NCBI RefSeq assembly: GCF_000802205.1
Contig: NZ_CP012850.1
Coordinates: 310,001-374,000 of the forward strand
Direction: 5' to 3'
Source: Candidatus Nitrosocosmicus oleophilus
GTDB taxonomy: Archaea > Thermoproteota > Nitrososphaeria > Nitrososphaerales > Nitrososphaeraceae
Length of the DNA stretch: 64,000 bases
Shown here: piece by piece, positions 1,424 to 29,348 of the stretch
Numbering within the stretch: position 1 is the first letter of the stretch
Layout: each line of letters opens with the position of its first letter
Notes under the pieces: model-generated
What the model was told of the DNA's origin: nothing
Database searches by the model: none
Seen by the model: only the letters and a program-made list of their open reading frames with translations
Program-made: the position numbers and the translations under genes

Positions 1424-1728
1424 CCCAGTTAACACAATTGAACAACCCGGAGAGATCAAAAATAACTTAATATATTCATGCTCAAAGTATTTTGATATTT
1501 GATATTTGAACTTAGTGATACTATATTCGGTATCATTTAGTTTGGGCCCGTGGGGATACGATTCAATGTTGAATAGAATCTACACACTAAAAACATCAAA
1601 CTCAAAAATATAAAGATAATTTGTTTTAACCTACGTATCAGGATTCATTTTTTTATCAATGATAGTCCTACTTGATACAAACAAAAAATAAAGGTTTAAG
1701 AACTAATTCAGGAGTGACTAGATGTTTC
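1424..1728. other. Convergent intergenic region
   Basis: No gene-like reading frame. Contains the dispersed repeat at 1544-1580 whose first 14 bases equal the 3' end of the tRNA-Lys gene. Confidence 0.5.
1544..1580. repeat. Dispersed repeat with tRNA-Lys 3'-end-like head, tail type A
   Basis: Starts with gggcccgtggggat, identical over 14 bases to the 3' end of tRNA-Lys as read on this strand (29075-29088), then diverges into acgattcaatgttgaataga. ATTCAA-tg-TTGAAT is a perfect inverted repeat. It could be an attachment-site scar or a small structured element. Confidence 0.55.
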
Positions 1729-7516: not shown

Positions 7517-7956
7517 TGTCGTAAAATGTCATTACGATATTACCAGATAAGAGACCACTAAGTTTGGGCGCGTGGGGATTCGTGCTGATATCGGTATTTT
7601 AAATAGGATTCTAAAGTTAATAGTAGCAAGATATACTTAAGGATTTAATTAACAAATGAAATTTTAGAGCTAGATCAAAAAAGAATCTAATTAAAAAATA
7701 TAAGTTATACTCAAGAATTAACTTATTTGTTATTAGGGACAGAACTATGAAACATCAAGAATGACTATTCTAACTAATACTTTGAGCTTGACTACAAAGC
7801 AGTCTATTTTTAGTTATATATACATTCATCTTCTTAGCCATTTGCCATTAGTATACATTATCTTAGTACTAATGACAGCTAAAACTGATAGATAGCAATC
7901 ATCAAATACAATTGATAGAAAAAGACAAATCTAGAGAAGACGAGGTCTAAACTAAT
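7517..7956. other. Intergenic region
   Basis: No gene-like frame. It holds the tRNA-3'-like dispersed repeat at 7566-7611; the rest is AT-rich spacer. Confidence 0.45.
7566..7611. repeat. Dispersed repeat with tRNA-Lys 3'-end-like head, tail type B
   Basis: Head gggcgcgtggggattcg matches tRNA-Lys 3' end (29075-29091) at 16 of 17 bases. The tail tatcggtattttaaatagga is shared with the copy at 8756. Preceded by taagttt, as the 1544 copy is preceded by tagttt. Confidence 0.6.
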
Positions 7957-10696: not shown

Positions 10697-11141
10697 TAGC
10701 ATAACTTATTCATATATCGACGTTCTATTAGTAACAGTCTGGAAGCGTGGGGATTAAGTTCCTAGAGGTAGTGGGGTTCTACTACTAAAGAAAGATTTCA
10801 TGTGTTATTCACTATTGAGATAGAAAGACATTAGTGTTTGTATCATATCTCTAGATTTATTGCTAGACCAATGTCGCACATAATTCAGAATTACACTTTA
10901 AATAATTTTTTATATTTTCAATGAATGTATGGGATCGATGTCTAATCATTTTAAAATAATCATCATACTGTGATTGCTGTTAGATTTTACTATGTGTTAT
11001 ATTCTTGTCAGTAACCACTCCTACAAAATAGTATTTCGGGAAAGCCAAGAACCCTTTACCTATCAACAACGAGTTATGACTTAAAAAAATTGTAGAATTA
11101 GGATCTTATTTTAGATATTTTCTATTTGTGTTATGGTACTA
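10697..11141. other. Intergenic region
   Basis: Contains the dispersed repeat at 10728-10787. No gene-like frame; short frames are interrupted repeatedly. Confidence 0.45.
10728..10787. repeat. Dispersed repeat, tail type C
   Basis: ttagtaacagtctgg is identical to 13900-13914 next to the integrase. It is followed by aagcgtggggattaagttcc and a tail ggtagtggggttctactact shared with the copies at 12050 and 13784. Confidence 0.55.
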
Positions 11142-12159: not shown

Positions 12160-12624
12160 TTAGCTCTGTGCTGCTGCGTTGTTGCCAGAGTTCTCTTGAC
12201 TTTGGACGTTGATGTTGTTACCAGAACCTATTGTATCTCCACCTGAAACTACCTGGCTGTTTTGGCTAGAGGATTGAGATTGACTGATGCTTTGGTCTGC
12301 AGAGTTTCCACCATTTCCATAGTCATCATCGTCTTGTGCTAATGCATTGTTACCAGTATTCTTTTGGTGTTGGAAGCTAACATTATTACATGACAGAAAT
12401 GTTGTTCCACCAGAAGCACACAAAGCATTTTGAACTGAAGCTTGTGATTGAGATATTGATTGCTCAGCATGATTTCCTTTTTTCTTTTTGGTTGCAAAGG
12501 CATCATCCATAACCACGATGGGGCTTGCGAAAAGAGCTAATGCGACCACTATTGCGATTGATGCTACTAGGAGTTTTTTGTTTTGGTTTTTGTTGTGAAT
12601 ATTTGTTTTATTCATACAAGTCAT
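12160..12624 (-). CDS. Exported Gln/Asn-rich curlin-like repeat protein
   Basis: 154 residues with a signal peptide (residues ~18-45, ending ASPIVVMDDAFA). The mature protein has two repeat units of the form (A)xQSISQSQ(A/S)S.QN...(A/S)SGG.(T)....NN(V/I).(V/F)Q.Q.N(T/S)GNNA.AQ. The first unit has a Cys pair (LCASGG... and SCNNV) that the second lacks. The regular Gln/Asn spacing recalls curli-type amyloid repeats. The small proteins at 29405 and 30144 share the single-unit version (EQEIEQ...QCV(T/S)G...CNNVG). An extracellular matrix or adhesive role is inference. Confidence 0.65.
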   Translation of the reverse strand: MTCMNKTNIHNKNQNKKLLVASIAIVVALALFASPIVVMDDAFATKKKKGNHAEQSISQSQASVQNALCASGGTTFLSCNNVSFQHQKNTGNNALAQDDDDYGNGGNSADQSISQSQSSSQNSQVVSGGDTIGSGNNINVQSQENSGNNAAAQS

Positions 12625-13899: not shown

Positions 13900-13925
13900 T
13901 TAGTAACAGTCTGGGCGCGTGGGAA
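13900..13925. repeat. Integrase-proximal repeat, candidate attachment site
   Basis: ttagtaacagtctgggcgcg then tgggaa. The first 15 bases repeat at 10728. gggcgcgtggg differs from the tRNA-Lys 3' end (gggcccgtggg) by one base. It lies 38 bp before the integrase start, where an archaeal att site is expected. The match is short, so this is only a candidate. Confidence 0.35.
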
Positions 13926-13963
13926 CTAGTGACAATAATGACTATATATTGAGGTTCCTCTAA

Positions 13964-15208
13964 ATGTATATGTTGTCAAGCTTAGTAAATAACAATATTC
14001 CAAATCACAATCCGATGTTCTTTTTTCTTACTATGCTAAGTTCACCTGCATCTAAACGTCAGTATCCACAAAGACTAAAGGTTTTTTTTGATTTTCTCAA
14101 GCTCGATGGAAGTTTGGAAGAACAAGCCGATGCATTTGTCAAGCAATACAAACAAAATGATTGTGAAGATCTTGAAAGACAGTTACTCATATTTGCGGGA
14201 TACCAAAAAGAGCGAGTAGCAAGAGGCGAAATATCATCTTCAACTGTTCCAAATTATTTTAAGGCGATAAAGCTTTTTTGCGAAGGTAATCGTATTGGTC
14301 AAAGCATAAGTTGGAAGATCATATCTAGATCAATGCCCAGAGCTTTGAAGTCTGCTAATGACCGGGCTCCCACTTTAGATGAAATCCAGAAGCTAATTGA
14401 GTATCCTGATCGTAGGATCAAGCCTCTAGTATTTACATTGGTATCTTCAGGAATTAGAATCGGCGCATTTGACGATCTCAAATGGAAACACATAATCCCT
14501 ATTCATAATAAGGAAACTAATGAGATTGTTGCTGCTAAAATCTTGATATACCCTGGTGATATAGAACAGTACTATTCTTTCATAACTCCAGAAGCCTATA
14601 TTGTACTAAGAGATTGGATGAACTATCGTGAATCTTGTGGTGAACACATATCTAAAGAAAGTCCTCTGATGAGAGATATTTGGCAAACGAATGATGTCAA
14701 AGGTGCAGCCAATCCCATTGTGCTCAAGACATCGGCTATCACCCGTCTATTAAATAGAGCATGGCAAGCCCAGAGGATCCGCAGTAAATTACCAAATGGA
14801 AAAAGAAGACACGAATTTCAGACAGCCCACGGTTTTAGAAAATATTTCAAAACACAAGCAGAGTTAGCGAGAATTCCTTCGATAAAAATCGAAATGTTAA
14901 TGGGTCATAGCCTTGGTGTAACAGACTCTTACATAAGATTTACAGAAGAACAAATGCTAGAGGATTACCTTAAGATAATTGATTATCTTACCATTAACCA
15001 AAGCGTTGTTCTTGTAAATAAGAGTCTCAAGAAGCAAGACGAGTCCGTTAGAAATACCCTTCAGGATATGGAGCATAGACATAGAAGAGAAATAAACGGA
15101 CTACATGAAGCATATGAAAGAAGTATGGAACAATTAAGGGATGAAATGGAAAGTAGATTTGAACAACTTTTTCTTAAAGTCGACTTAGAGAGATTGAAAC
15201 AACCATAA
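13964..15208 (+). CDS. Tyrosine recombinase (archaeal integrase)
   Basis: 414 residues. The catalytic set is in order: R165 (SSGIRIG), H289 and R292 (AHGFRKYF), H315 (LMGHSLG) and Y323 (SYIRF). An N-terminal SAM-like region (residues ~30-130) would bind core DNA. After the catalytic domain a ~70-residue coiled coil (QDMEHRHRREINGLHEAYER, then QLRDEMESRFEQLF) is added. The real start may be a later ATG at 14033 (MLSSPASKRQYPQRL). It inserts or excises the element to its right; the gene is transcribed into that element. Intact and probably active. Confidence 0.88.
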   Translation: MYMLSSLVNNNIPNHNPMFFFLTMLSSPASKRQYPQRLKVFFDFLKLDGSLEEQADAFVKQYKQNDCEDLERQLLIFAGYQKERVARGEISSSTVPNYFKAIKLFCEGNRIGQSISWKIISRSMPRALKSANDRAPTLDEIQKLIEYPDRRIKPLVFTLVSSGIRIGAFDDLKWKHIIPIHNKETNEIVAAKILIYPGDIEQYYSFITPEAYIVLRDWMNYRESCGEHISKESPLMRDIWQTNDVKGAANPIVLKTSAITRLLNRAWQAQRIRSKLPNGKRRHEFQTAHGFRKYFKTQAELARIPSIKIEMLMGHSLGVTDSYIRFTEEQMLEDYLKIIDYLTINQSVVLVNKSLKKQDESVRNTLQDMEHRHRREINGLHEAYERSMEQLRDEMESRFEQLFLKVDLERLKQP

Positions 15209-15330
15209 TTTTATCATGTAATGCATGAACAATTCTCTAACTATCGTTACCATATGCAGCTTGTAACCTATAGGTTACTATGCAGTAGTAATAACATATT
15301 TATACCTCCCTACATACATATTAATTATTG

Positions 15331-15642
15331 GTGGAAAAAAATTATTCAGATAGTAAAGAACACAACAAAAATGGTAAAGTGAGAATTTTATCAAATAAAT
15401 ACCGTTTGCCTTCAAAACATCCAGAAAGTTCAAAAATACATAGTTCGATCACGTTAAGTTGCGGTCGATGTAAAAATTCCTGGGTTTATACTGGAAAAAG
15501 TTTATACTATACTTCCTGTAGCAGATGCAAATCATCAATCAATATTAAAAACGGTAAATTAAATGAGGAAATAATATCTGTTGATGGAAGTTTCCGAGGC
15601 TCACATCAACAGACAAGAAGCAGAGATAAAGATTCCCTATGA
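15331..15642 (+). CDS. Small zinc-ribbon protein
   Basis: The frame starts at TTG 15328 or GTG 15331; GTG (VEKNYSDSKEHN) is preferred. A zinc ribbon occupies the middle: LSCGRCKNSWVYTG, then YTSCSRCKSSI (CxxC...CxxC, 20 residues between pairs). Both flanks are basic or polar. It overlaps the next gene by four bases (ATGA-type junction), so the two are translationally coupled. Small zinc ribbons are typical DNA-binding or regulatory cargo of archaeal plasmids and viruses. Confidence 0.6.
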   Translation: MEKNYSDSKEHNKNGKVRILSNKYRLPSKHPESSKIHSSITLSCGRCKNSWVYTGKSLYYTSCSRCKSSINIKNGKLNEEIISVDGSFRGSHQQTRSRDKDSL

Positions 15643-15941
15643 ATTCGAGGAATTCTTTATCATACCGTAATTTGAATAGACAGACTAATAAACCTAAAGT
15701 GCCGAATAATAAAGTTTGTTCGGGTCTAAGTTGTGAAAATTATGGCATATGTATATTACAAATAAAATATATAAACAAGCCAGGTTGGTTTTGTGAAGCC
15801 TGCAAAAACGATTTGTTGGCGAATGATTTAGTGATCCATAATTTAGATCACATAAGTAGTAACACTTATCTTCATAACTCATATAGCATCAGCTTTCAAA
15901 GCAACAAGAATAGTAAAACGGAGGTACAATCTAATGAATGA
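15639..15941 (+). CDS. Small Cys-rich putative zinc-finger protein
   Basis: 100 residues. Metal-binding pattern: VCSGLSCENYGIC, then PGWFCEACKNDLL, giving CxxxxC...C and CxxC ligands. The rest is Asn/Ser-rich. The start overlaps the stop of the upstream zinc-ribbon gene, and its end overlaps the following gene's ATG (15934) by eight bases, so the three form one operon. Function unknown; nucleic-acid binding is plausible. Confidence 0.55.
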   Translation: MNSRNSLSYRNLNRQTNKPKVPNNKVCSGLSCENYGICILQIKYINKPGWFCEACKNDLLANDLVIHNLDHISSNTYLHNSYSISFQSNKNSKTEVQSNE

Positions 15942-16431
15942 CAATAGCGAGAAGAATAATCAATGGTCGAGTACTAATTCAGATCTGTTAATATGGAAAC
16001 CTACAAAAACGAATGGCGAATGGACAAAGTACGATGAAATTGAGGAGGAGATAAGAGAAAAACTAAAGCCTGAGGATGGATTCAAAACGATCATTGATCA
16101 AATGCAGTATAGTGTTAAGATCAATCCAGACAAATCCATAGTTTGTTTCAGAAATCTTCGCAAAGGAAAGCTCAATAATCCAATTAATTACAATTCTGCA
16201 AATCGCCCTTACACACCTCTTGAATATGAGTCAAAGTTGGATCCAATCGAAAGTATTAGACTGATATCATTAGATAAGTTTGATAAAACTAGTATTAGAA
16301 ATCAATGGCGGGTCTCTGAAGCAAACAATCTTTGCATAATCGATAACAAACCCCATGTAATATTGATTAAAAGAGGAACAATACCTGCTCTAGAGGAAGG
16401 ATCAGTAAATAATGAGGAGGAGTCAAAATAG
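15934..16431 (+). CDS. Mobile-element protein of unknown function (165 aa)
   Basis: No family recognised. ATG 15934 has a strong ribosome binding site, ggaggt, at 15920-15925, eight bases away. The sequence is charged and soluble (KYDEIEEEIREKLKPEDGFK; SIRLISLDKFDKTSIRNQWR). It lies directly upstream of the replication genes in the same operon, so a replication-accessory role is possible. Confidence 0.55.
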   Translation: MNDNSEKNNQWSSTNSDLLIWKPTKTNGEWTKYDEIEEEIREKLKPEDGFKTIIDQMQYSVKINPDKSIVCFRNLRKGKLNNPINYNSANRPYTPLEYESKLDPIESIRLISLDKFDKTSIRNQWRVSEANNLCIIDNKPHVILIKRGTIPALEEGSVNNEEESK

Positions 16432-16801
16432 ATTGATTCATTTCTCATCTTTATCAATTAATCAATCATCAGACGATTTCACAATCACTCATTCGAATGA
16501 AATTGATGAATTGATCAGACACATTCCGATAAATGAGTCCTTGAAATTTCTGATCTATGATATTGTCCAAACCCAAGATATCTTCTTTATAGGTTTTCAA
16601 CCTGAATGCAATGAGGCCGACATCAGTATTTATGAATTTAGAAATATTGAAGACATATACTCTGCAGTAAGAGAAGAATTAAAAAAGCTTAGAATAGATA
16701 GTAAAGCAAGGAACAATATTCTTATAAACATAAAAGATTATGCAAATGAGATTGAAGATAATGTAAAATTTTTTGGAGGTGCAAGAATATTTGATTGTTA
16801 A
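16412..16801 (+). CDS. Mobile-element protein of unknown function (129 aa)
   Basis: Overlaps the previous gene by 20 bases. ATG 16412 has gaggaagga 10 bases upstream; TTG 16433 has ggaggag 12 bases upstream and would avoid the overlap. The sequence is alpha/beta and acidic (DIVQTQDIFFIGFQPECNEA; RNIEDIYSAVREELKKLRI). No motif recognised. Its end overlaps the start of the ATPase gene by 11 bases. Confidence 0.5.
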   Translation: MRRSQNRLIHFSSLSINQSSDDFTITHSNEIDELIRHIPINESLKFLIYDIVQTQDIFFIGFQPECNEADISIYEFRNIEDIYSAVREELKKLRIDSKARNNILINIKDYANEIEDNVKFFGGARIFDC

Positions 16802-18806
16802 TATTCCAATTCCAGAAGAGGCTAAGGACGTTGTCAATTCCATAATCATCATAAATTCTAATACGATTCAGTTAAAGCTATCTGGGAAGTATAATAATAA
16901 AGTTCTCAATTTACCTTTTAATAGTAAGGATTTTGGAAAGTCACTTGAACGCATTGAAAAGAAGGTGAAAGAGAAATTAACAATAGATATCCACGACTAT
17001 AATAAAATAGAAGATACAATTTGTACTGAGATAACAAAATTAATTGATAAAGAAAACAATGAGATAGAGCCGTTAAAAAGCCGTGTTACTGTCAATAAAT
17101 ATTCAAATGATAGAAAAGGTGAATTGTACGAGGCCGTACTCGTGGATAAAGAACCATCTTTTGCCATGATAAATGAGAACAAAACTTTTGAATTAGTTCC
17201 TTTTATCGATGAAAAGACACGTACACTTCTTCCTCCATCGCAGGAGGAATACTTGCACATTCCTTATGAATTTGAATCTGTAGATGAACTCGATACTTAT
17301 ATAAAGAAATGTGAAACCGAGGGTATCCTCTCAATGTATCGCAGGGTTAAATCAATTGTATCTAAATGCATCGATCAAGATGAGACTGTAATAAATCTGA
17401 TTTCGATAGATATCGTTTTCTCTTATTTTCAGGACAGATTTAACACCGTTCACTATACAGGCGTATTTGGAGATAACGGTACTGGCAAAAGCAGTATAGG
17501 AGACGTCGTGGAAGTTCTTGCATATCGAGCAATGAATACTACTGACCCTACACCAGCCAATATCTATCGAGCGCTAGGAAAAGTAGAAGCAGGACAACAT
17601 ACGATGATAATAGATGAAGCAGAAAAAGTTGATCAAGTCCCAGAAATGGTGGCCATATTTAAGTCAGGATATGCGTATAGCAAGAAAATCAACCGGGTAA
17701 ACCCTAACAGCGGAATCTCTGAAAAATATTATGCATTCTGCCAGAAAATGATAATCGGCGAAAGGCCTTTGGGACAAAATATTGCTAAAGGAGTATTGGA
17801 TCGAACATTTTCAATTACTACATATCCTGGTAAACCCGTCTATGACATAAAGGAGATAATCAATCCCACCAACACGGGTAAAGCAGAATACAAGACAGTA
17901 TATGAAGAAATAATGGACCTTAGAAAAATGCTATTTGTTTATAGGATAAGAAACTTCAGATCTACTATTCCTGATATTGATATTGGTATTGGACGAAGAA
18001 ATAAAGAATTGGTAAAACCTTATCTTCAATTATTCTCATGCTCTTTCAAAGGCGAGTTTAATCTGGTATGTATAGATTGCATTAATCCTGATACTTTATC
18101 GGATATAGATAGAACGACTCTTCAAGAAATTAAGAATACCTTTAAGATTTTAGTTGATGCAAAACATGTGCGTCGAGAGGCCACCATAGAAGCTAAATTA
18201 CTTCCAATAATAATTGAATTGGCCATTGAATATCATAAGGGTAAGACTATCACATATTCTGACTTATGGAATGTAATCAAGGTCAAATTTCGAGGTTACT
18301 ACGACGAAAGAAGACCTAACGAGTATCATACTGAAGACTTTGGAATAATATATAGAAACACGATATCAAATGTCATACAAAAACTAGGAGTAGAGACTAG
18401 ACATAGAAGAAATAGTACTGAACTACTGTTTCATATGGACAATATAATAAGAACCGTCGTACAATACAACATTCCAGTTCAGTCAACACTGACTTTTGAT
18501 AGCCCTCCAATTGCTGATTCATCTGGTGAGGACTGTGAGTGCTGTGAGCGCTCTACTGATGCTCCCGGCATTAATACCAAACTAGAAAGCAGTATGGATA
18601 TTGATAACGTATCGAATATTTCCACTTCTGATAGACAAGTAATATCTGATGATAACGAAATTAAAAATAAAATACAAGAGTATAAGAATTATAACAATAT
18701 CTATAGATCAGGTAAAACTGACAATTGGTATTGTAAAAAATGCAAATATTATGGCGATATATGGTTTATGAAGACGCATCCATGTAAAGGAGTGGCCGCT
18801 TCGTAA
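16791..18806 (+). CDS. AAA+/helicase-like replication ATPase of the element
   Basis: About 672 residues. The frame is open from TTG 16773, but ggaggtg at 16775-16781 sits 9-10 bases before TTG 16791, which is the better start. Walker A is GDNGTGKSS (residues ~227-235) and Walker B is MIIDEAE (D275). The order N-terminal unknown domain, ATPase, winged-helix-like region (~residues 470-560) and a C-terminal zinc finger (WYCKKCKYYGDIWFMKTHPC) resembles plasmid/viral replicative helicases that work with AEP primases. The primase-like gene follows 33 bases later. It probably unwinds the element's origin. Exact helicase superfamily is not settled. Confidence 0.7.
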   Translation: MIVNIPIPEEAKDVVNSIIIINSNTIQLKLSGKYNNKVLNLPFNSKDFGKSLERIEKKVKEKLTIDIHDYNKIEDTICTEITKLIDKENNEIEPLKSRVTVNKYSNDRKGELYEAVLVDKEPSFAMINENKTFELVPFIDEKTRTLLPPSQEEYLHIPYEFESVDELDTYIKKCETEGILSMYRRVKSIVSKCIDQDETVINLISIDIVFSYFQDRFNTVHYTGVFGDNGTGKSSIGDVVEVLAYRAMNTTDPTPANIYRALGKVEAGQHTMIIDEAEKVDQVPEMVAIFKSGYAYSKKINRVNPNSGISEKYYAFCQKMIIGERPLGQNIAKGVLDRTFSITTYPGKPVYDIKEIINPTNTGKAEYKTVYEEIMDLRKMLFVYRIRNFRSTIPDIDIGIGRRNKELVKPYLQLFSCSFKGEFNLVCIDCINPDTLSDIDRTTLQEIKNTFKILVDAKHVRREATIEAKLLPIIIELAIEYHKGKTITYSDLWNVIKVKFRGYYDERRPNEYHTEDFGIIYRNTISNVIQKLGVETRHRRNSTELLFHMDNIIRTVVQYNIPVQSTLTFDSPPIADSSGEDCECCERSTDAPGINTKLESSMDIDNVSNISTSDRQVISDDNEIKNKIQEYKNYNNIYRSGKTDNWYCKKCKYYGDIWFMKTHPCKGVAAS

Positions 18807-18838
18807 CTATTTGAATATCAACATTTAGTGAAACAGAG

Positions 18839-20026
18839 ATGAATAATATATCAAATCGAATTAAAGAAGAAGAGATAAAGAAATCTATTGACTTTATTTT
18901 AGATCACTTTAAGCATCAACCTAAACTATTTCCTAGAAAGATAATGACTGCCAATTATTCGGGACAATTCACAGTCTATACCAAAGAAGAAATGTTTGAA
19001 GCTTATCGACAAGCCGAGTTTAAGAATTGTAGAATAAATGCATATCCAGTTGATATCTATGAAAATAATGAGTTGATACAGCCCCCAGATTTTATATTCA
19101 TTGATCTAGATCAGAAATTATTTTCTAATTATAAGAATCCTCGAAAAGTGCTTGATATAGTTAAGGATGATACTCTAGCGAAAATATCTTCTACTTACTC
19201 TATAGAGCACTCACAGTCCGCACAGTGTGCACAATATTCCAAATTAAGCAATTCAAGTGAAAGTAAAAATAAAGTATTTTCAACAGTAATATGGTCGGGT
19301 AACGGATATCATATTTATTTACCACTTGACTCCCTAGTGTTAGATAAATATCCGCACTTTTCTAAATCGCAATTCCCTTTCTTGTTTCCTTTTTATAAGC
19401 AAAACACTCCTGAATATTCAACTTCTGAGATGTTACTCCAGTTCACCGAGGAATTATTTACCAATGGAAGGGCCGATCCTCAACATATGCCTGTTTACAA
19501 AACATGTTTTCTAAGAATTCCTAATACATTTAATTTGAAATGTTTGGAAAATGGGAAAAATTTAGAAGATTCAAAAGTTATGTTAGTACAATCATGGAAT
19601 GGATACAGACCACCAATACAATTACTTACCAAAGGATTCAGAAGATGGTTGATTCAAAAAGAACTAGATCTACAGCACACTGTTCGATTTCAACCGCAAA
19701 TCCAGAGTTATAACACTGAAACATCTGCTTACCGACCAATACAATGGATAGATGATCTTCTAAAGAGAGGTATTTCCGACGGAAGAAAGGAATCTATAAG
19801 GCTCATTTTAGGACCATATTTAGCAAAAAGAAAAAGCCATGGTGAGGCATTTAGGACTTTACAAGAATGGCTTGAAAAATGTCAAAAAGTAAGGCCATTA
19901 GATAGAACCTTTGATCCGAAACGAAGGATAACTTCTGCCCTAAAAAATAGTAAGGGATTTATAAAATTAGAAAACTTAAAGATAAAGTACAGATGGTTAT
20001 ATAACGCCATAGCTGTTGAATATTAA
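18839..20026 (+). CDS. Archaeo-eukaryotic primase-like protein
   Basis: 395 residues. Three AEP-type motifs are visible: DFIFIDLDQK (D89, D91; metal ligands), VIWSGNGYHIYLPL (H158; the sGxGxH-like second motif) and the later FLRIPNTFNLK. The C-terminal ~80 residues (RKESIRLILGPYLAKRKSHG; FRTLQEWLEKCQKV) look like the PriCT helical module. With the upstream ATPase it makes a primase-helicase pair that could replicate an excised circle. The region around residues 110-150 is Ser-rich and may be an insertion. Activity is inferred from motifs only. Confidence 0.7.
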   Translation: MNNISNRIKEEEIKKSIDFILDHFKHQPKLFPRKIMTANYSGQFTVYTKEEMFEAYRQAEFKNCRINAYPVDIYENNELIQPPDFIFIDLDQKLFSNYKNPRKVLDIVKDDTLAKISSTYSIEHSQSAQCAQYSKLSNSSESKNKVFSTVIWSGNGYHIYLPLDSLVLDKYPHFSKSQFPFLFPFYKQNTPEYSTSEMLLQFTEELFTNGRADPQHMPVYKTCFLRIPNTFNLKCLENGKNLEDSKVMLVQSWNGYRPPIQLLTKGFRRWLIQKELDLQHTVRFQPQIQSYNTETSAYRPIQWIDDLLKRGISDGRKESIRLILGPYLAKRKSHGEAFRTLQEWLEKCQKVRPLDRTFDPKRRITSALKNSKGFIKLENLKIKYRWLYNAIAVEY

Positions 20027-20305
20027 TCAAATGTATTAGTTCTTAGAAGGAATTCAAGTTATGTACGCCTTTAGAATCATTTCAAGGGACATTTTATATG
20101 CATAGTTTAGTTTAATGTGTCCTTTTTATATCTATAATAAAACCTTCGGTCTAGATTACAAATTGTCTATCAAAGGCTGTGTACATATACGAATGACTCA
20201 ATAGGAATAATTTTTTTAATTTTAAACTCATTCTGATTTAAGTCGCATGTATGTGATACAAAGGTTTATCTAACATTTGGTTCGTATTTTCTAAGTAATA
20301 GATAA
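20027..20305. other. Intergenic region within the element
   Basis: AT-rich spacer between the primase-like and HEPN-like genes; no gene seen. As the longest spacer beside the replication genes it is one candidate place for a replication origin, but no clear iteron array is visible. Confidence 0.3.
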
Positions 20306-21205
20306 TTGAATGTTCCATCTTTATCCGGAATTTCACTATCGTCTGCTCAGCCCGGAGAAAAGGTAAAACTGGCGATAACGATAAATTGCAAAGATGAACA
20401 TACTGATGATCTAAAATTAACACTTGCATTAAATATCTTAAATAATATTGTTTATCCTGAAATCATCCATTTGGCTCTAAATAAAGAAATATCTTCTGGA
20501 TTTAGATTGAATATGGCTCAGATAGTAATGTTTGAAGATGAATCACGTAACACCGTTTTATTAAATGAGAGTGTTCGATTCAGTGGGAATGTGGTTCTTA
20601 GAAATAAGGACTATAAAATGGGCGAACAGATCCTAGGAGGAGACATAGTTGATGTATTGGGGTTATATCCCCGAGAAGATAGTGATCCTGATGCTGCAAA
20701 TATAATGATAATTAACCTAAATGGTAGATGGTATATAGCGGCAGACTTCATTTATAATAAATGTAAAGCGAAATTACTCATAGACGAATCTAAAAAGTCT
20801 TTGATTGATGCAAAAAATTCTCAGTCTAAAAAGTCTTGGACATTTTTTATTAGTGAACTATATGAATCAATAACGCGATCTGCGTCAGCAATTTTTATGA
20901 TGTTACGATATGGAAAGTTTTCAATGTCAAATTATGACGATATTCGAGAGGTATTCGCTACTTATTCCAATTTGGGTAATATCGATGAAGAATATTTTAT
21001 TACGTTCGAGAGGATCCATACCTTGTTCTCTAATGCTAAGAATTTGAGTGAGTCTGAAAAAGAGACGTTCAAAATAAAAGCGGAAGAAGCAGACAGAATG
21101 GTAAAAACAATCAATCGTTTAGTAGAAAAGGCCGAATCGTTACAACAATCATCTGTTTCTGGACGTGCTTCTGAAGGCCATTTTATCTACTTTGGCACAT
21201 CGTAA
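20306..21205 (+). CDS. HEPN-like domain protein
   Basis: 299 residues from TTG 20306. Residues 1-130 form a beta-rich domain (GEKVKLAITINCKDE; SVRFSGNVVLRNKDY). NLNGRWYIAADFIYNK marks the join to a helical domain of ~120 residues: SKKSWTFFISELYESITRSA, then DEEYFITFERIHTLFSNAKN. The helical part matches archaeal HEPN proteins of the RWY(I).(F)D(F).YNK family. The canonical RxxxxxH RNase motif is not intact (ERIHTL instead), so catalysis is doubtful. It follows the replication genes after a 280-base gap. Toxin-like or nucleotide-binding roles are possible. Confidence 0.5.
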   Translation: MNVPSLSGISLSSAQPGEKVKLAITINCKDEHTDDLKLTLALNILNNIVYPEIIHLALNKEISSGFRLNMAQIVMFEDESRNTVLLNESVRFSGNVVLRNKDYKMGEQILGGDIVDVLGLYPREDSDPDAANIMIINLNGRWYIAADFIYNKCKAKLLIDESKKSLIDAKNSQSKKSWTFFISELYESITRSASAIFMMLRYGKFSMSNYDDIREVFATYSNLGNIDEEYFITFERIHTLFSNAKNLSESEKETFKIKAEEADRMVKTINRLVEKAESLQQSSVSGRASEGHFIYFGTS

Positions 21206-21241
21206 ACTTAAGAAAACTCTTTATTTTGCGTCAGCATTATT

Positions 21242-21805
21242 ATGTATATGAAAAGCTCTTCGCCAGTGGTTTATGTAACTAACAAAGATAATTCTGTCGG
21301 AATTCTAAACCTAGGTGGAGATTATGGTGTTCAAAATAATAACCAATTTTCTGCCTTTTATATGAAAAAACTTATTAGGAGTTACAACCGTAATCCATCG
21401 GCCTCTTCAGTATTTCAAGTGGTGGTCCCCAAATCTCCTCATGCTAGATATGTTGAAGCTGCACCGATTCAAGCCAGAATTCATATTAATCAGGGAAAAA
21501 TATTGATAGGAAAAATCTCAAAGAGAGAATCAATAGAAAAAATTGTACAAGAAATAGTGTCGTTTAGTAAAGTTGACCCGCAGATAGGGAAAGCAGATAA
21601 TTTGGACAATCTTTACGCAGAGTTGACGAAGCTTGTTCTCAAAAAATACAAAATAAAGGATTTGGCCGAATTAGATCGCAAGATAATTAGTGAAAATCTA
21701 TTGGAAGGAAAATCCTATGATGATCCTGAATTTAAAGCCATTTCTCTATTACAGTATAGAAACTTGGAAAGGAGAAAAGCATATTCTGAAGATTTAGAAC
21801 TTTAA
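21242..21805 (+). CDS. Unknown protein (187 aa), element cargo
   Basis: No family recognised. N-terminal half contains VVYVTNKDNSVGILNLGGDYG and a basic stretch (KKLIRSYNRNP); the C-terminal half is helical and charged (LTKLVLKKYKIKDLAELDRK). It starts 36 bases after the HEPN-like gene and is probably co-transcribed with it. It overlaps the convergent gene at 21802 by four bases. Confidence 0.5.
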   Translation: MYMKSSSPVVYVTNKDNSVGILNLGGDYGVQNNNQFSAFYMKKLIRSYNRNPSASSVFQVVVPKSPHARYVEAAPIQARIHINQGKILIGKISKRESIEKIVQEIVSFSKVDPQIGKADNLDNLYAELTKLVLKKYKIKDLAELDRKIISENLLEGKSYDDPEFKAISLLQYRNLERRKAYSEDLEL

Positions 21806-22245
21806 TCCGATATCTTTGCAGTTATTTTATTTTTCATATTATATAGAATTGCATTTTTAAGAATCATCTCAATACACGTGAGCTTTAATCTGTCATTTTC
21901 ATTGATCCATTCTTTATATATCTCCTCTTTATTGACCCCATATACGAATGAGATTTGTGATATCAATAAAGTATAATGTTTATTGAAAATGCAAACCAAA
22001 TCAAATGTTGACGGTATTTGTTGAAGAAGAATTTCTTGTTTTTCCAATACTTTATAATAATTATCTACAACTTTACCGATTTCTTCCTTGCATTGCCTTA
22101 GTAAATCCTCATAATCCAACGACAAAAAGGTTTTCTTATGAATTAATAAAAGAACCCTTCTGCAGAGATCGTAGTCCTCAACTATCTTTAAAAAAAGTGG
22201 ATCATCAATGAGCTTTTTTAAAAAAGTTTCAAAAGACTGGCCCAC
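21802..22245 (-). CDS. Unknown helical protein (147 aa)
   Basis: GTG start (VGQSFETFLKKLIDDPLFLK). Nearly all-helical prediction by eye: DLCRRVLLLIHKKTF, LLRQCKEEIGKVVDNYYKVL, LTCIEMILKNAILYNMKNKI. It is the only leftward gene of the element and converges with the 21242 gene. No catalytic motif. Could be a small regulator or immunity protein; no evidence either way. Confidence 0.5.
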   Translation of the reverse strand: MGQSFETFLKKLIDDPLFLKIVEDYDLCRRVLLLIHKKTFLSLDYEDLLRQCKEEIGKVVDNYYKVLEKQEILLQQIPSTFDLVCIFNKHYTLLISQISFVYGVNKEEIYKEWINENDRLKLTCIEMILKNAILYNMKNKITAKISD

Positions 22246-22321
22246 ACAGAATTTTATCTCTAAATTCTATATATAATTAATCGATTCTCTTTATAGATTT
22301 AATTTATTTATATAGATTTAA

Positions 22322-23921: not shown

Positions 23922-26600
23922 ATGAGTTATGATCTGAGTAAATTGGGACAAGAAAATTTTGAAAGACTTGCGCAAGCTTTGGTTCAGAGGTTTATTTCGC
24001 CCTCCGCTAAAATTTATGGACGGGGAAGAGACGGTGGTAGAGATGCAGTTTACATAGGTAAATCAACTTATGATAAACAATACCCAACTAACCTGGAACC
24101 TTGGGATGGTCATTGGATATTTCAAGCTAAATTCCATAATACGGATCTAAGAGGGCACCAAGATGCTCGAAGTGAATTATTAAGTGAAATTGAGCCGGAG
24201 CTAGACACGATTGTGAATGTAAATAAACTTCAATGTGATAATTATGTAATAATTACCAATGTGTCACTTACATCAGTACCCGAAAGCGGGACAAGAGATA
24301 AACTTGAAAAGCGATTTGAAGAATTAAAGCCCAAATATAAAGTCAAAAACATAGGCATCTGGAGTGCGTCCGAGATTGATGGGTTTTTGATTAATAACCC
24401 TGAACTGACTAGATCTTTTGAATCGCTGAGATCACCGTTCGACATTGCAAAGGATTTATTTCATCTGAATTATAATCTCGAAGTTTCCTGCATATCTTTA
24501 AGTATTCCTAACTTAGGAACAAAAGAGATACTTCAAAGTTTATCAAATGCACTAAACGTTCAAAAAGAGATAAATGAAGAACCTATGCCATATGTCTTTA
24601 CTGATGAATTGAGTAAAATTGTAAACAGAAAAGTTCTGTTTCTGTATGGAAGATCTGGAATTGGGAAATCTCGAACAATTCTCGAGCTTACAAAGAGTTT
24701 ATTAAATCAAGGAAAAACAATTTATCTGATCAATCCATTTTCTACCCAGAATAAGATCAATAACAGAAAGAGTTTGCTTTCAATTGTATCGAATATTCAT
24801 AGCGATGATATACTGATATGGGATAATTTTCCTAACGATCTTGTTCATAGAAATATTAATGATGCTAGGAAAGCCTTGGATCTACTAATCTCAAAAGAAT
24901 GCAATGTCATTATGTCTTTAAATCCATTTTATCCTGAATCCTATTCTGATTTGGTTAAAGAAATTCCAGAAATTGATACTTACAAGATAAGGTTCGATAA
25001 GAAAGATCTAAAGAAACTAATCCACAGTTACGGATCAGAAGTAAGTCAATTTCGGCAGGTATACGCTTCTGATATTCAGCACAAAATTGAAGAAATATCT
25101 GATATATTGTGGAAAAAGGATCCGAGTCCGATGCTAATATTAGAATATTATAGAGAATTGACAAATGTCTTGCAGAATTATCCTAGTTCTTTTGATTCAA
25201 TTATTATTGCTCAAAGATTAGAAGGCTCCAAGGAATATTATAACAGGCAGTTCAAATTTTTGAAAAGTAACAGGAAATATGACAACCTTGTCCATTTTCT
25301 TTATACATTGAAAGTATGCTATGAATTAGGGATAAGTAGAGGATTAGACCAATTGGAGATACTGCAATCGAAGATATTCAAAACATCTCCCCCTCCTGAA
25401 CCATTGGACTCGCTTAATAACTGGCTATATTTATCTGGTCAATATTATTCATTACATGACATAGCTAGGGATTCGATCAATTTCAATCCAGACAATAATC
25501 TCAAGTTGACGTATTATATTAAAAACAACCCAAATTTAATAACAGAAAATGACAATACTCTCTATTTAGGAGGGATCTTTATTGGCAGAAACATACAGTA
25601 TCTGTATTCGGGACCATCTAATCCACTATTACCTACTAATTTTGATATCTTGACTAATAAGGCAAATGCTATCAAATCAAAACAATCCGATCTAATCAAA
25701 TGGCTTAATGAAAACAAAATTGGAATGGGCGATCCGAGATTGACTCGTGCAATGGTGGAATCTGTCAATCGTGATAAAGACTATTTTGGGCTTGGACTAG
25801 GAACAGGTCTTGGCCAATCTTTTATTGCCTTTGATCAAACCCTAAAATCTGATATGTGGAACAATCTGACTAAATTGTTCGAGGAATATCCAGAAGTTGC
25901 TTATGGATTTGGAAAGGAGGCCGGGAATGTATTTAAAAACATTGAAAATGAATATCGATGTTCTCTCTGGGATAAATTTATAGAAACGTGTAATAGAAAC
26001 GGCGATTTTGCATTAGGCTTGGGAGAATCTATTAGCAATATATTAGAATTTTTAGACGAAAAAGATCTGACCAAAATCCGAATATTGATTAGCAATAATA
26101 TGGAATTTATTTCAATTTTTCCCATTTCGCTAATGCAGCGGATCCTGTTAACAGAAACTAGTTATTTCAAAGATCCGTTAGTTTCCTTATTGGCCAAGGA
26201 TAATAAAATAGCAAAGACATTTTCAGATATCTTCCACATAACCTATGAAGGCCTGAGTCCTGAATTACAAATGAAGATATTTAAAGAAATAGAGAACTGT
26301 AAATTACTATCTTATATACGATTAAACGATCTACATTGCAGTTTCTGTAAACAATTCATCTCTCCAGAAGAGTATCACGAGCATATGACTATCAGTCATC
26401 CCAAAATAATAGCAGAAATAAAGAGGACGGAAGGACAGTATGAAAAATGTAAATTTTGTGATGCTACATTAAAAAATGAAATTAATGAAACCCTTAGGCA
26501 TTTTGGGGAAAACCACTATGATGTGATGCCTTCGCATATGAAGACAATCTATGAGAAATGGAAAATGGCGGGGTTCCCCGAACTAGATTCTGAAAGATGA
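23922..26600 (+). CDS. Mrr-like nuclease - STAND NTPase - Gly-repeat - zinc-finger protein (candidate antiviral effector)
   Basis: 892 residues. Residues ~8-75 form a PD-(D/E)xK core of the Mrr type: E14 (ENFERLAQAL), D37/D41 (GRGRDGGRDAVY) and Q68-A-K70 (WIFQAKFH). An NTPase follows with Walker A GRSGIGKS (243-250) and Walker B ILIWDNFP (D301), in the style of STAND ATPases coupled to restriction-type nucleases. Residues ~540-720 hold spaced Gly-rich blocks (FGLGLGTGLGQSF, AYGFGKEAGNVF, FALGLGESISNIL), perhaps a sensor solenoid. Two C2H2-like fingers close the protein: CSFCKQFISPEEYHEHMTISH and CKFCDATLKNEINETLRHFG(ENH). The layout parallels Avs-type antiviral proteins (nuclease, STAND, sensor), but the Gly blocks and zinc fingers are not features I know from them. 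Function is inferred. Confidence 0.75.
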   Translation: MSYDLSKLGQENFERLAQALVQRFISPSAKIYGRGRDGGRDAVYIGKSTYDKQYPTNLEPWDGHWIFQAKFHNTDLRGHQDARSELLSEIEPELDTIVNVNKLQCDNYVIITNVSLTSVPESGTRDKLEKRFEELKPKYKVKNIGIWSASEIDGFLINNPELTRSFESLRSPFDIAKDLFHLNYNLEVSCISLSIPNLGTKEILQSLSNALNVQKEINEEPMPYVFTDELSKIVNRKVLFLYGRSGIGKSRTILELTKSLLNQGKTIYLINPFSTQNKINNRKSLLSIVSNIHSDDILIWDNFPNDLVHRNINDARKALDLLISKECNVIMSLNPFYPESYSDLVKEIPEIDTYKIRFDKKDLKKLIHSYGSEVSQFRQVYASDIQHKIEEISDILWKKDPSPMLILEYYRELTNVLQNYPSSFDSIIIAQRLEGSKEYYNRQFKFLKSNRKYDNLVHFLYTLKVCYELGISRGLDQLEILQSKIFKTSPPPEPLDSLNNWLYLSGQYYSLHDIARDSINFNPDNNLKLTYYIKNNPNLITENDNTLYLGGIFIGRNIQYLYSGPSNPLLPTNFDILTNKANAIKSKQSDLIKWLNENKIGMGDPRLTRAMVESVNRDKDYFGLGLGTGLGQSFIAFDQTLKSDMWNNLTKLFEEYPEVAYGFGKEAGNVFKNIENEYRCSLWDKFIETCNRNGDFALGLGESISNILEFLDEKDLTKIRILISNNMEFISIFPISLMQRILLTETSYFKDPLVSLLAKDNKIAKTFSDIFHITYEGLSPELQMKIFKEIENCKLLSYIRLNDLHCSFCKQFISPEEYHEHMTISHPKIIAEIKRTEGQYEKCKFCDATLKNEINETLRHFGENHYDVMPSHMKTIYEKWKMAGFPELDSER

Positions 26601-27321: not shown

Positions 27322-28938
27322 TTATTCGTCCTCAATATCTGAGAGTGGAACATGATTATATTCCTGAATATTAGAATAAATTATTACCTCTATAGGATCA
27401 TATTCATTTAGACAATATATTTCCTCAATTCTCTTGTTTTCCAATCCAAATACCTTTTTTAAGATCCATATTTGAGAAACGAATTCTAGAATCTTGGCCA
27501 TGTATAACCACTTATATGGATGAATCTGGGTATGCTCTGTTAAAGAATGGCCAATGATATTTCTGTATCTAGATGCTATACCTGCAAAATTATCAATTGT
27601 TATTCGTCTAATTAAATACATAAAACTTAATTTTAATTCACAGTTTTTATTAATATTTTGAAGTAACTCCTTATACATGCTCTCTCTTTCATCTTTAGTT
27701 TTGTTCATGTCTATTTCGGATTTTGCTTTAATCACCTTAACCAGCTCGTTCTTCATTTCAGTCTTTAGGTCTAGAGTTATGCTCTTTGGATCATCTATAG
27801 TTACGAAAGATAGTAAGGGGTTTTGAACAGTAATAAGTTTCCAAAAGGGATCAAATAGCTCAGTGAATCTTTCTTTCAAAGATAAGCTTGTCTTGCCTTT
27901 TTTGTTCCTTAGATATTTCTTATTTTTGGGACTTAACTCCATATCTGGAGTTTCAATATAAGTATAATTTTTTCTGTTAACCTTTTCCGCATAAATAAGA
28001 GATGACGACTCATTAAACACATATGTATTATGAAAGGCTTCAAGGAAACTTGCTAACTTAAACACTCGAAGTTCAAATGTAGTTGTCTCATACATATAGT
28101 TAAAATAAAAGGAATAAATGACTCTGTCCTGTGCAAAATGGAACCAATTTTTTAAAAATTTCTCTACCTCCGCTTGATATTTGTCAAATCTAATAAGAAC
28201 CGATTTCGTATTGTCGCATTTATTCATTCTAGATGATACAAAGGATTTGAACTGTATGTCAATTACTTTGTTCTCAATATCATTGTTAATTATTCCATAC
28301 AGAGTATGAACCAACACATTATTGTCGGTTATAATAAAATTCAAAAAATCTTGAATGATTTTTTTTATGTAGAACCATTGATGTAGGGATTTGCTTCCCT
28401 TTTTTGAAATTACTTTAACATATACATTATAAAAATTGTCAATAGTTAACTCATCCCTTTGTCTTATAGGCTGGCCATTCAAGAACTGTATTTCGATTTC
28501 TTCACTAACATCAAACCTAATAATTGAATTGTCTTTAGAAAAGTCACTATATATTATCATATGCGATGAAATCCATTTTGCGACATTTGTAAAATTAATG
28601 ATCAGAGCATCAAACTTTATCTCTGCCAAGGAACTAAATAATTTTCCATATAAAACCAAGAATATGTTAAAACTTAAATTCATAGAATTATTGCCCATCA
28701 TCCTGGAATATTCTGACAAACTTCCTTTTAACGTAAAAAGTTCATTGTCTTTGGATTTGCCATGAATAATGACAAAGGGCTGGTTTTTTAAGAAAGATAC
28801 ATCTCCTATAAAACTATTGTTTGAAGTTTGCAAAAGGAGTACCCCATTCTCTATTTTTCCGTCAAATATTATATTAGTGTCTCTTGGAAACCAGAAAATT
28901 CCTTCGATATTTGTTATAAGATTACTATACTCTATCAA
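27322..28938 (-). CDS. ApeA-like HEPN protein (candidate abortive-infection RNase)
   Basis: 538 residues. The N-terminal ~300 residues form a beta-rich domain (GIFWFPRDTNIIFDGKIENG at the start), as in ApeA N-terminal domains where IxGxFWxP-type motifs occur. The C-terminal third is helical and contains RYRNIIGHSL, an RxxxxH HEPN catalytic motif (R456, H461), preceded by MYLIRRITIDNFAG. ApeA proteins are single-gene anti-phage HEPN RNases in bacteria; this length and domain order fit. It converges with the Mrr-STAND gene and lies 135 bp from tRNA-Lys. No companion immunity gene is apparent, as expected for ApeA. Confidence 0.7.
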   Translation of the reverse strand: MIEYSNLITNIEGIFWFPRDTNIIFDGKIENGVLLLQTSNNSFIGDVSFLKNQPFVIIHGKSKDNELFTLKGSLSEYSRMMGNNSMNLSFNIFLVLYGKLFSSLAEIKFDALIINFTNVAKWISSHMIIYSDFSKDNSIIRFDVSEEIEIQFLNGQPIRQRDELTIDNFYNVYVKVISKKGSKSLHQWFYIKKIIQDFLNFIITDNNVLVHTLYGIINNDIENKVIDIQFKSFVSSRMNKCDNTKSVLIRFDKYQAEVEKFLKNWFHFAQDRVIYSFYFNYMYETTTFELRVFKLASFLEAFHNTYVFNESSSLIYAEKVNRKNYTYIETPDMELSPKNKKYLRNKKGKTSLSLKERFTELFDPFWKLITVQNPLLSFVTIDDPKSITLDLKTEMKNELVKVIKAKSEIDMNKTKDERESMYKELLQNINKNCELKLSFMYLIRRITIDNFAGIASRYRNIIGHSLTEHTQIHPYKWLYMAKILEFVSQIWILKKVFGLENKRIEEIYCLNEYDPIEVIIYSNIQEYNHVPLSDIEDE

Positions 28939-29073
28939 GAATAACTAACTTCATAGCCTTGTATGCAAGTATTAACCTTAACCAGATCATATATATAGAT
29001 AAATCAACGAACGAGTACTTCATTCCAAATACTACATACAACGATGAACCCAAATTCTTAGTCAAATTTTTAA

Positions 29074-29164
29074 CGGGCCCGTGGGGATTCGAACCCCAGA
29101 CAGCCGGATTTCTTTCTATTAATAGTTAAAAGTCCGGTACTCTACCTGGCTGAGCTACGGGCCC
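29074..29164 (-). tRNA. tRNA-Lys (anticodon TTT) with a 17-nt intron
   Basis: On the minus strand the acceptor GGGCCCG pairs with CGGGCCC, followed by discriminator G at 29074. The D-arm is GCTC-AGCCAGGTA-GAGT, the anticodon stem CCGGA/TCCGG, the variable loop CTGTC, and the T-arm TGGGG-TTCGAAT-CCCCA. The anticodon loop CTTTTA-A is interrupted after position 37 by a 17-nt insertion (ACTATTAATAGAAAGAA), the canonical archaeal intron site. CCA is not encoded. Its 3' end faces the accessory region, which is the usual orientation for an archaeal integration target. Confidence 0.93.
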
Positions 29165-29348
29165 ATTACCTTTCTATATAAAACTAGTATAATTTAATTT
29201 TATAGATTAATGACAGGTAGACTGACCCCAGTCACAATACCTCTATAAACCAAGTACGAAAGCAAGAAAAACAACCAAAAAAGGTACAAATTGTCTGAAA
29301 AAAAATAATCGATAAATATTTTTGAGAATTATACTATTCAATAAAAGC

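Follow-up and report, generated by a model that had tools for sequence, protein, structure and literature searches.

Nitrosocosmicus is a genus of ammonia-oxidising archaea, and to our knowledge the way in which it gains accessory genes is poorly known. In a stretch of 64,000 nucleotides from the soil archaeon Candidatus Nitrosocosmicus oleophilus (NZ_CP012850.1, positions 310,001 to 374,000; here referred to as the window), a run of genes that opens with an integrase raises the question of what kind of mobile element it belongs to and where that element ends. A previous sequence-only reading had taken 13964–20026 (6 kb) as an integrated cryptic replicon, and all of its listed ORFs were found where it had placed them. 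Between the ends of this 6-kb version no direct repeats longer than 11 bases were found, which led the search to the tRNA. The 6-kb limits were too narrow: we probably deal with an integrative element of about 15.2 kb (about 13908–29088) that extends to a tRNA-Lys gene, with the genes at 13964–20026 as its integration and replication module (Table 1). Thus the integrated, non-viral character, the own integrase and the primase/ATPase pair were retained from the first reading, while borders and content had to be corrected.

The element is bounded by the 3′ end of tRNA-Lys, which forms the att core at 29075–29088, and by a degenerate copy of the tRNA-Lys core. Inward of each core lies an arm repeat, the two arms being inverted relative to each other. 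Using the profile from other species, the arm at the tRNA end was the top-scoring place in the window (22.5) and that at the integrase end the second best, barely above the background (14.8 versus 14.4). In the congener G007, the far-end arm was recovered by a profile built without G007 (17.1 versus 12.0 for the next-best place). Some observations, however, count against the element model: the distal core shows 2 mismatches to the array consensus; the integrase gene lies at the distal end and faces the tRNA, opposite to its arrangement in G007 and in G003 from the same genus; and neither an empty tRNA-Lys site, in 9 genomes of the genus, nor a circle was seen. The first segment was also considered as a composite of two elements and this was rejected, the second inverted core being absent (0 on the other strand when sought at the far end inside the segment). 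Regarding the flanks of the 6-kb version, the left one gave mostly dispersed repeats and 20030–23900 matched its own genome alone among 15 genomes.

Table 1. Features of the element and of the att-like array in the window
Feature	Position	Strand	Basis or remark
att-like array site; 14-base core identical to tRNA-Lys 3′ end	1539..1557	-	
att-like array site	7561..7579	-	
att-like array site	10736..10754	-	
Distal att-like core of the element (first array site)	13908..13926	-	
Arm repeat, integrase end	13935..13957	+	profile from other species
Tyrosine integrase (int)	13964..15208	+	catalytic motif; PHROG integrase E 1.5e-15
zr1, short Cys-rich (zinc-ribbon-like) protein	15328..15642	+	weak Pfam matches; homologue in same place in L081
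zr2, short Cys-rich protein	15639..15941	+	no Pfam family
g4, no assigned function	15934..16431	+	weak relatives in L215, L216, L217
g5, no assigned function	16412..16801	+	44% homologue, same place in L081
P-loop ATPase, putative AAA+ helicase/initiator; winged-helix region, C-terminal zinc finger	16773..18806	+	Walker A/B; fold comparison
AEP primase with C-terminal PriX domain	18839..20026	+	motifs; PriX match; fold matches
Protein of the element, no assigned function	20306..21205	+	no Pfam family; weak PHROG matches only
Protein of the element, no assigned function	21242..21805	+	no Pfam/PHROG family
Cargo: P-loop NTPase protein, candidate defence gene	23922..26600	+	Pfam ATPase matches; weak PADLOC match, E 5e-5
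Cargo: relative of candidate defence family PDC-S58	27322..28938	-	PADLOC E 4.3e-17
Inverted arm repeat, tRNA end	29046..29068	-	profile from other species
tRNA-Lys(UUU) with intron	29073..29165	-	ARAGORN, amino acid unassigned there; Lys is our reading

The integrase shows the tyrosine integrase pattern R...HxxR...H...Y, and its R165, H289, R292, H315 and Y323 were all confirmed and are invariant in an alignment of 17 sequences. Its relatives (E ≤ 1e-20) occur in 48 of 70 genomes; among 19 relative loci, 10 lie directly behind a tRNA detected by ARAGORN, and 6 more adjoin an intron-bearing tRNA identified by eye. Nine genomes of the genus, that of the window (G000) among them, were examined at tRNA-Lys, and in 7 of the 9 it is directly followed by an integrase gene or fragment. 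Members of the int family were found behind tRNA-Lys in G003, G007 and G008, and fragments in G004 and G005; G010 has a divergent integrase there and G013 a broken one. The ORF next to tRNA-Lys is no recognised integrase in G000 and G012. In G007, the same tRNA-Lys is immediately followed by int (65%), zr1, zr2, g5, the ATPase and the AEP gene, the gene order being that of the window. Beyond the tRNA, on its far side, G007 and the window are collinear over the whole extent of G007 compared (29.4–53 kb); collinearity stops at the tRNA, and on the near side just scattered matches were found.

Downstream of int, zr1 and zr2 overlap as described before, by 4 bases. Their matches are weak: DUF5817 came first among Pfam families with E 0.0034, and zinc-ribbon models began at 0.018. 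A homologue of zr2 occupies the same place in L081, and in L074 and L089 one precedes the ATPase. In the ATPase, G233, G238, K239 and E282 are invariant and D281 nearly so among 15 sequences; the C-terminal finger occurs in only part of the family. Its relatives were found in 26 of 101 genomes, own genome counted. Pfam, PHROGs and NCBIfam gave no convincing family, and DUF3631 (PF12307) had 0 matches in 120 genomes, which says little as the control also matched nowhere. By fold comparison the best match was to MCM (Z 7.4), followed by Cch (Z 6.0), so middling scores that would place the protein among AAA+-like folds only; since its model is poor (pLDDT 61.8), the helicase role is a putative one.

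The last gene of the module had been described as AEP-like, which was correct as far as it went. The motifs of the AEP superfamily, named hhhDhD, sxH-type and third acidic, are all present, and D89, D91 and H158, together with D213, which had not been listed before, are invariant in 31 sequences. The AlphaFold model of this protein (pLDDT 87.5) matches the AEP catalytic fold; the Foldseek matches were to the RepB' catalytic domain (probability 1.00, TMt 0.57, E only 0.013) and to the S-2L AEP domain (TMt 0.54, E only 0.15). What had been missed is a C-terminal PriX domain at residues 301–391 (E 4.4e-13; TM 0.75 by target length), making the protein an AEP-PriX fusion. As NCBIfam NF033412, the PriX equivalog, scores 44.3 bits, under the curated cut-off of 50, this part is a PriX-homologous domain and not an equivalog. 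It is homologous to the PriX of Sulfolobus (PDB 4wyh, 5of3), which forms a subunit of its own within the PriSLX primase, whereas here it is fused to the AEP of the element.

AEP relatives were detected in 36 of 101 genomes, own genome counted; this spread and that of the ATPase relatives go beyond chance. An ATPase relative lies upstream of the AEP in just 8 of 37 named loci. This count would agree with the view that the AEP–ATPase pair serves repair or defence and that the element is not self-replicating, as would a weak PADLOC match of the ATPase to AbiLi (E 2e-5) and the case of a Thermus ICE, at which, according to PMC7693054, a primase-polymerase beside a helicase is dispensable for element replication and is linked to defence against environmental DNA. 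We regard this as unlikely, as int is repeatedly linked with primase/ATPase modules, and in G010 and G036 with a PrimPol protein. In the reading that we prefer, Int would recombine an attP core with the tRNA-Lys core, so that the element is inserted beside the tRNA and its other core is left distal. In the excised circle, the AAA+-like ATPase would open an origin and unwind, and the AEP-PriX protein would lay primers for a host polymerase to extend.

The rest of the element includes candidate defence cargo, and the earlier statement that viral structural genes are lacking agreed with our search. Among its 14 ORFs of at least 70 aa, the sole structural PHROG match was a poor one (integrase tail to an internal virion protein, E 0.096); conjugation genes were sought by Pfam only, in 13 of the 14. 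A viral origin was likewise unsupported by viral_contigs: the peptide patterns used picked up no relative of the AEP, the ATPase or the integrase there, and an exact att site was absent. With an integrase, att repeats and no viral structural genes, the element belongs to the cryptic integrated elements, a kind described for Thaumarchaeota by Krupovic et al. in 2019 (PMC6563490). The type had been called poorly characterised in Thaumarchaeota, which is fair, but the class was thus already described.

The tRNA-Lys core is not restricted to the two ends. It was matched 35 times on the tRNA strand of the genome and 0 times on the other (1 match for the reversed-pattern control), and 33 of the 35 lie within 150 kb behind tRNA-Lys. 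The element is the tRNA-proximal, or first, slot of a one-strand array of about 150 kb of cassettes separated by att-like sites. Such sites occur in 12 of 70 family genomes, the control giving 0 in all. Of 91 sites counted over four species, none lies within an ORF of at least 100 aa, at an ORF coverage of 0.56–0.66, and L and R flank types are combined in many ways over one core. The right flank of tRNA-Lys itself is unlike the flank types of the array, which counts against the element model. Cassettes average 2.6–3.8 ORFs of at least 70 aa on both strands (tRNA strand/other strand: G000 62/74, G007 67/35, G003 14/9, G005 30/21).

Homology within and between species breaks at the sites. Considering same-strand HSPs of at least 300 bp outside first segments, 0 of 87 cross a site, against a mean of 6.1 and a minimum of 1 in 1000 random intergenic sets, and for 10 of the 87 the end coincides with a site in both copies (random mean 1.36, maximum 7). 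A random-shift control agreed, and was replaced by the intergenic one because shifts placed sites inside genes; an earlier masked test of HSP ends had been weak (43 of 704 ends near sites versus 27.7 ± 7.9). Perhaps the cores are not recombination sites at all and represent a strand-biased regulatory or repeat motif tied to paralogous exported-protein genes, which are many in the array region, every site being intergenic. These breaks in homology, the 14-base identity with the 3′ end of tRNA-Lys, the location of sites on one side of the tRNA only and the genes on both strands around them make this very improbable.

Taking the cores as recombination sites, the array would be a record of repeated insertions of different cassettes at one core, and the present element would be the one that occupies the tRNA-proximal slot now or entered it last. 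How the other segments arose can be seen in two ways. They may be former autonomous, int-bearing elements at tRNA-Lys, all but the first now fixed by accretion and decay, with int acting on its own element only. Decayed int fragments at 211062–211181 and 278830–279132 of G000, in 2 of its 36 downstream segments, indicate that part of the array of the window is simple decay; tandem integration is known in archaea (in sections of PMC8371274), and 15 of 31 islands of the Dehalococcoides array have no integration module (in sections of PMC3146451). On the other hand, most segments have no trace of int, G000 has 16 among its 37 that are shorter than 2 kb, and dead remnants should not keep their cores so well. 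We consider such accretion quite possible, if short of probable.

Alternatively, a single integrase beside tRNA-Lys may capture and reorder int-less cassettes in trans, as in an integron-like platform, making the array a living store and not a graveyard. The int profile had no match in the downstream segments of G007 (28), G003 (9) and G005 (14), and the mixed flanks over one core point the same way. So does the state of the sites: G000, G003 and G007 keep an intact int in their first segments and have 9, 4 and 6 perfect sites, respectively, and the sites look decayed (0 of 15 perfect) in the one genome with a decayed int, G005, which keeps a fragment only. The adjacent cassettes s3–s4 of G003 are swapped as s16–s17 in G007, the only one of 5 neighbour pairs that is also adjacent there. 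The cassette order of G003 and G007 gave a rho of 0.80 (p 0.1, 5 cassettes only), which counts against the model of repeated insertion. Against a living store stand the two int fragments, the multi-ORF cassettes on both strands, and two draft genomes, G008 with int behind tRNA-Lys and no site at up to 2 mismatches, and G009 with 12 sites and no int match at E ≤ 1e-20; no movement of a cassette was observed. We take it as a rather doubtful reading. G008 and G009 count against the model of repeated insertion as well.

The element itself would be excised and replicated, and it may mobilise other cassettes in trans. In its widest form, which we put forward only tentatively, this would be a tRNA-anchored archaeal counterpart of super-integrons that evolved independently of IntI/attC, in which the one tyrosine integrase of a self-replicating AEP-PriX element beside tRNA-Lys uses a short site derived from the tRNA to capture, store and reorder dozens of int-less gene blocks in trans. 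A mapped capture site with its integrase and replication module would explain the build-up of the variable region of about 150 kb, would make site-specific capture of cassettes directly testable in an archaeon, and may be a base for vectors; small elements of the cryptic integrated class are named in PMC6563490 as candidates for much-needed genetic tools.

Within the main-text passages of PMC6563490, the elements described share with ours an integrase, a short att that in many cases lies at the 3′ end of a tRNA, varied genes for replication and no viral structural genes. CalSub-E1 likewise has primase and helicase on separate genes, and ThaMY3-E2 (98.3 kb) is named there with PolB and MCM. These passages contain no array of dozens of att sites, no AEP-PriX fusion and no mention of the present locus, and the term PriX is absent from the main text; the supplement may list part of the array. 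No description of such an array was found in the literature searched, including parts of PMC11559005, PMC8371274 and PMC7603488.

Archaeal and other integrons, as presented in sections of Ghaly et al. 2022 (PMC9668308), similarly have a single gene for a tyrosine recombinase next to the receiving site and a long one-strand array of sites. Unlike there, the receiving site here is a tRNA gene and the cassettes are multi-gene on both strands, not short ORFs of generally one orientation. The mean MFE of 28 sites was -4.23 (-5.23 for the other strand), compared with -4.72 in 200 intergenic windows and -4.81 after shuffling. Because the sites do not fold like attC, the array is not an integron in the strict sense.

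The nearest analogue is the ssrA genomic-island array of Dehalococcoides, for which sections of McMurdie et al. 2011 (PMC3146451) report many direct repeats of the 3′ end of an RNA gene in the 100 kb downstream, islands with and without an integration module, and a base at which gene and repeats commonly disagree. Here, too, an RNA gene is followed by an array of direct repeats of its 3′ end; however, Dehalococcoides is a bacterium with a CcrB-like serine recombinase and a tmRNA, while here a tyrosine-type recombinase occupies the first slot, at a tRNA-Lys and with a replication module. The array seems to be an archaeal equivalent of the islands that collect genes in bacteria. The SCCmec Cch/primase operons, as given in parts of PMC7581432, also set an initiator-type ATPase and a primer-making enzyme beside a site-specific recombinase, but with an A-family polymerase with a small partner or SSB and Ccr-type recombinases; the match of our ATPase to Cch noted above is a weak fold match.

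The interest of this locus rests on an array of att-like cores behind tRNA-Lys more than on a primase pair. We searched the window's own genome (G000; 3.43 Mb, single contig) with a pattern of core plus right flank, ATCCCCACGCGCCCARACT, allowing up to 3 mismatches, and found 35 matches, every one on the tRNA strand; 33 of them lie in the 150 kb behind tRNA-Lys; the reversed pattern, as a control, matched once. Two lone sites of the array type, on the same strand, were found far from the array. At up to 2 mismatches, sites were present in 12 of 70 genomes of the family (10 of the 15 of the genus, plus G036 and G108 (single site)), and the control gave 0 in all. The array begins behind the same tRNA-Lys in G000 and in the relatives G007, G005 and G003, whose fetched regions held 37, 29, 15 and 10 tRNA-strand sites, respectively, at up to 4 mismatches, the only opposite-strand site being one in G007. 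None of the 91 sites in these four genomes falls inside an ORF of at least 100 aa, with an ORF coverage of 0.56–0.66. Few left and few right flank types are combined in many ways over one core, as expected if each site joins the end of one insert to the start of the next. The right flank of the tRNA itself is of a different type, the arm, and the base that differs between gene and repeats is G in the tRNA and C in most array sites.

Homologous stretches (HSPs; same strand, at least 300 bp) were compared between and within the four arrays, with the first, tRNA-side segments left out. None of the 87 HSPs spanned a site plus 150 bp to its left and right, and 10 ended at a site in both copies, against means of 6.1 crossings (minimum 1) and 1.36 both-copy ends (maximum 7) in 1000 random sets of intergenic positions. 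Array sites are breakpoints of homology; an earlier, masked version of the test gave a weak result. The order of shared cassettes mostly differs: one of five comparable neighbour pairs is adjacent in the other genome, where it is swapped, and for G003 vs G007 rho was 0.80 (p 0.1, 5 cassettes). Cargo in G000 (79 proteins of at least 150 aa) was mixed and included, among the 25 of 115 families listed, four proteins matching MFS_1, three matching MEDS and two matching transposase families, along with many other families matched once each, e.g. aldo/keto reductase and Beta-lactamase. A divergent copy of an XPD-like helicase gene was observed in array segment 8, and the gene also occurs near tRNA-Lys in G007 and in the window. 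Short exported Gln/Asn-rich proteins of a large paralogous family surround the array, at many places in G000, G003 and G007.

As described in the consulted part of PMC3146451, the Dehalococcoides ssrA islands are arrays of the same kind, down to one base that is commonly not the same in the gene and in its repeats; the present case departs from that account in its tRNA, its tyrosine integrase and its archaeal host. By strict standards the array is no integron, since its sites showed no attC-like fold in a folding test and its cassettes are multi-gene and lie on both strands. No description of this array was found in the main texts of the open-access library searched.

In G007, the integrase begins directly behind an intron-bearing tRNA that we read as tRNA-Lys(UUU). 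The window carries the same tRNA, and its collinearity with G007 (29.4–53 kb, the extent of G007 fetched) stops there. ARAGORN left this tRNA unassigned in the window and called it Leu in G007. The integrase is immediately behind a tRNA found by ARAGORN in 10 of 19 relative loci and behind an intron-bearing tRNA recognised by eye in 6 more, leaving 3. tRNA-Lys is a hot spot, since an integrase gene or fragment lies directly behind it in seven of the nine genus genomes examined, with a divergent integrase in two; no empty site was found among the nine. The divergent tyrosine integrase, directly behind the same tRNA-Lys in G010, is broken in G013; one tRNA-Lys is used by two integrase families.

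The sequence-only reading of an integrated cryptic replicon with a primase-helicase pair, at 13964-20026, was right in kind and its limits were too small. The core ATCCCCACGGGCCC, resembling the tRNA 3′ end, lies at the tRNA, with a degenerate copy directly before the integrase, and an arm repeat of the AATTTGACTATAAATTAGGGTTC type adjoins each core, the two arms being mutually inverted. With an arm profile built from other species only, the tRNA-side arm ranked first in the window (22.5) and the integrase-side arm second, hardly over background (14.8 vs 14.4), and the far arm in G007 was clear of the rest (17.1 vs 12.0). Therefore, we place the element at about the limits in the table. In the window, the integrase occupies the distal end and is oriented towards the tRNA, opposite to the arrangement in G007 and G003. 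Ends that are inverted and nearly identical could permit either direction. As the same reading stated, structural viral genes are lacking: none of the 14 ORFs of at least 70 aa was matched convincingly to a viral structural protein. Two genes inside the element are candidates for defence, encoding a P-loop NTPase protein and a relative of PDC-S58. Two repeat pairs bracket the gene of this 892-aa P-loop NTPase, a possible sub-module.

Coordinates of features (window positions unless a genome or locus is named)
Feature	Position	Strand	Remark
Window	G000:C1:310001-374000		
Element	about 13908-29088		15,160 bp core to core
Degenerate core	13908-13926		
Intron-bearing tRNA-Lys	29073-29165	-	genome 339,073
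Direct repeat	23598-23638 / 26665-26705		41 nt, 90%
Second repeat pair	23689/26759		
892-aa P-loop NTPase gene	23922-26600		
Gln/Asn-rich proteins	12160-12624; 29405-29674; 30144-30410		
XPD-like gene	31025-32743		
XPD-like gene, divergent copy	G000:C1:296157-297944		40%; window -13843..-12056
33 array matches	genome 189,811-323,926		
Lone sites	G000:C1:656573-656591; 1830987-1831005		
Integrase fragments	genome 211062-211181; 278830-279132		
Far arm, G007	523239		
Divergent integrase, L131 (G010)	17092-18495	-	PHROG E 6.4e-12
AEP-PriX relative, L207	5945-7963	+	
AEP-PriX relative, L012	8414-9583		
880-aa PrimPol, L222 (G010:C9)	795-3431	-	
880-aa PrimPol, L219 (G036:C142)	2972-5611	+	

All genes of that reading were found. 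The integrase residues R165, H289, R292, H315 and Y323 are present and invariant in the alignment (n=17), Walker A and B of the P-loop ATPase are kept (n=15), and so are D89, D91, H158 and likewise D213 of the archaeo-eukaryotic primase (AEP; n=31). AEP residues 301-391 match PriX (NCBIfam 1.7e-11, 44.3 bits, below the curated 50; PDB 4wyh, 4.4e-13), as does the AlphaFold model (pLDDT 87.5; TMt 0.69-0.75), which aligned to the RepB' AEP domain at TMt 0.57; Foldseek of this model against PDB gave no match at E <= 0.001. A weak model (pLDDT 61.8) was obtained for the ATPase; its best alignments were to MCM chains and ORC/Cdc6 winged-helix parts, with Z below 8 (Cch, 6.0). The ATPase also had a weak PADLOC match to AbiLi (2e-5).

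In the tRNA-side segment, the integrase profile matched a gene that is intact in G000, G007 and G003 and a fragment in G005; these four genomes have 9, 6, 4 and 0 perfect sites, respectively. Fragments lie in other G000 segments, and there was no match elsewhere in the fetched parts of the four arrays. Two drafts speak against a tight integrase-array link: G008 has the integrase behind tRNA-Lys but lacks sites, and 12 sites are present in G009, where no integrase matched at E <= 1e-20. Most likely, the integrase would recombine attP with the tRNA-Lys core, so that, we propose, the newest insert would adjoin the tRNA; the array would be the sediment of repeated insertions at the core. The excised circle would most likely be copied by the ATPase, the AEP-PriX protein and a host polymerase. 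The question of greatest interest is whether the present integrase also moves integrase-less cassettes in trans.

Cryptic integrated elements are already known as a class from thaumarchaea, according to the part of PMC6563490 consulted. Of the 101 genomes searched, 36 have a relative of AEP and 26 one of the ATPase, in each case all but one within the window's family, and the 46 AEP loci found in the named collection all carry titles of ammonia-oxidiser-type thaumarchaea. No relative was found in the viral contigs searched with the patterns used. The order int-zr1-zr2-g5-ATPase-AEP (zr1 and zr2, short Cys-rich genes) is repeated in G007; relatives of the integrase, the ATPase and AEP sit together at one locus in G022, G028 and G036 as well, and those of the integrase and the ATPase do so in G013, G058 and G003. 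An ATPase relative lies upstream of AEP in 8 of the 37 named loci with enough flank. At others the large ORFs are different, P-loop, weak AAA-lid or winged-helix matches being seen in some of them; at one AEP locus, L207, the AEP-PriX relative comes after a gene for a family B DNA polymerase (Pfam 1.6e-37). At L012, L082, L090, L091 and L092, AEP-PriX relatives of 38-42% identity were observed, near which no relative of the window-type ATPase was detected. At L222 and L219, a PrimPol (PF09250) protein linked to the same integrase family replaces the window's ATPase; replication modules are exchanged.
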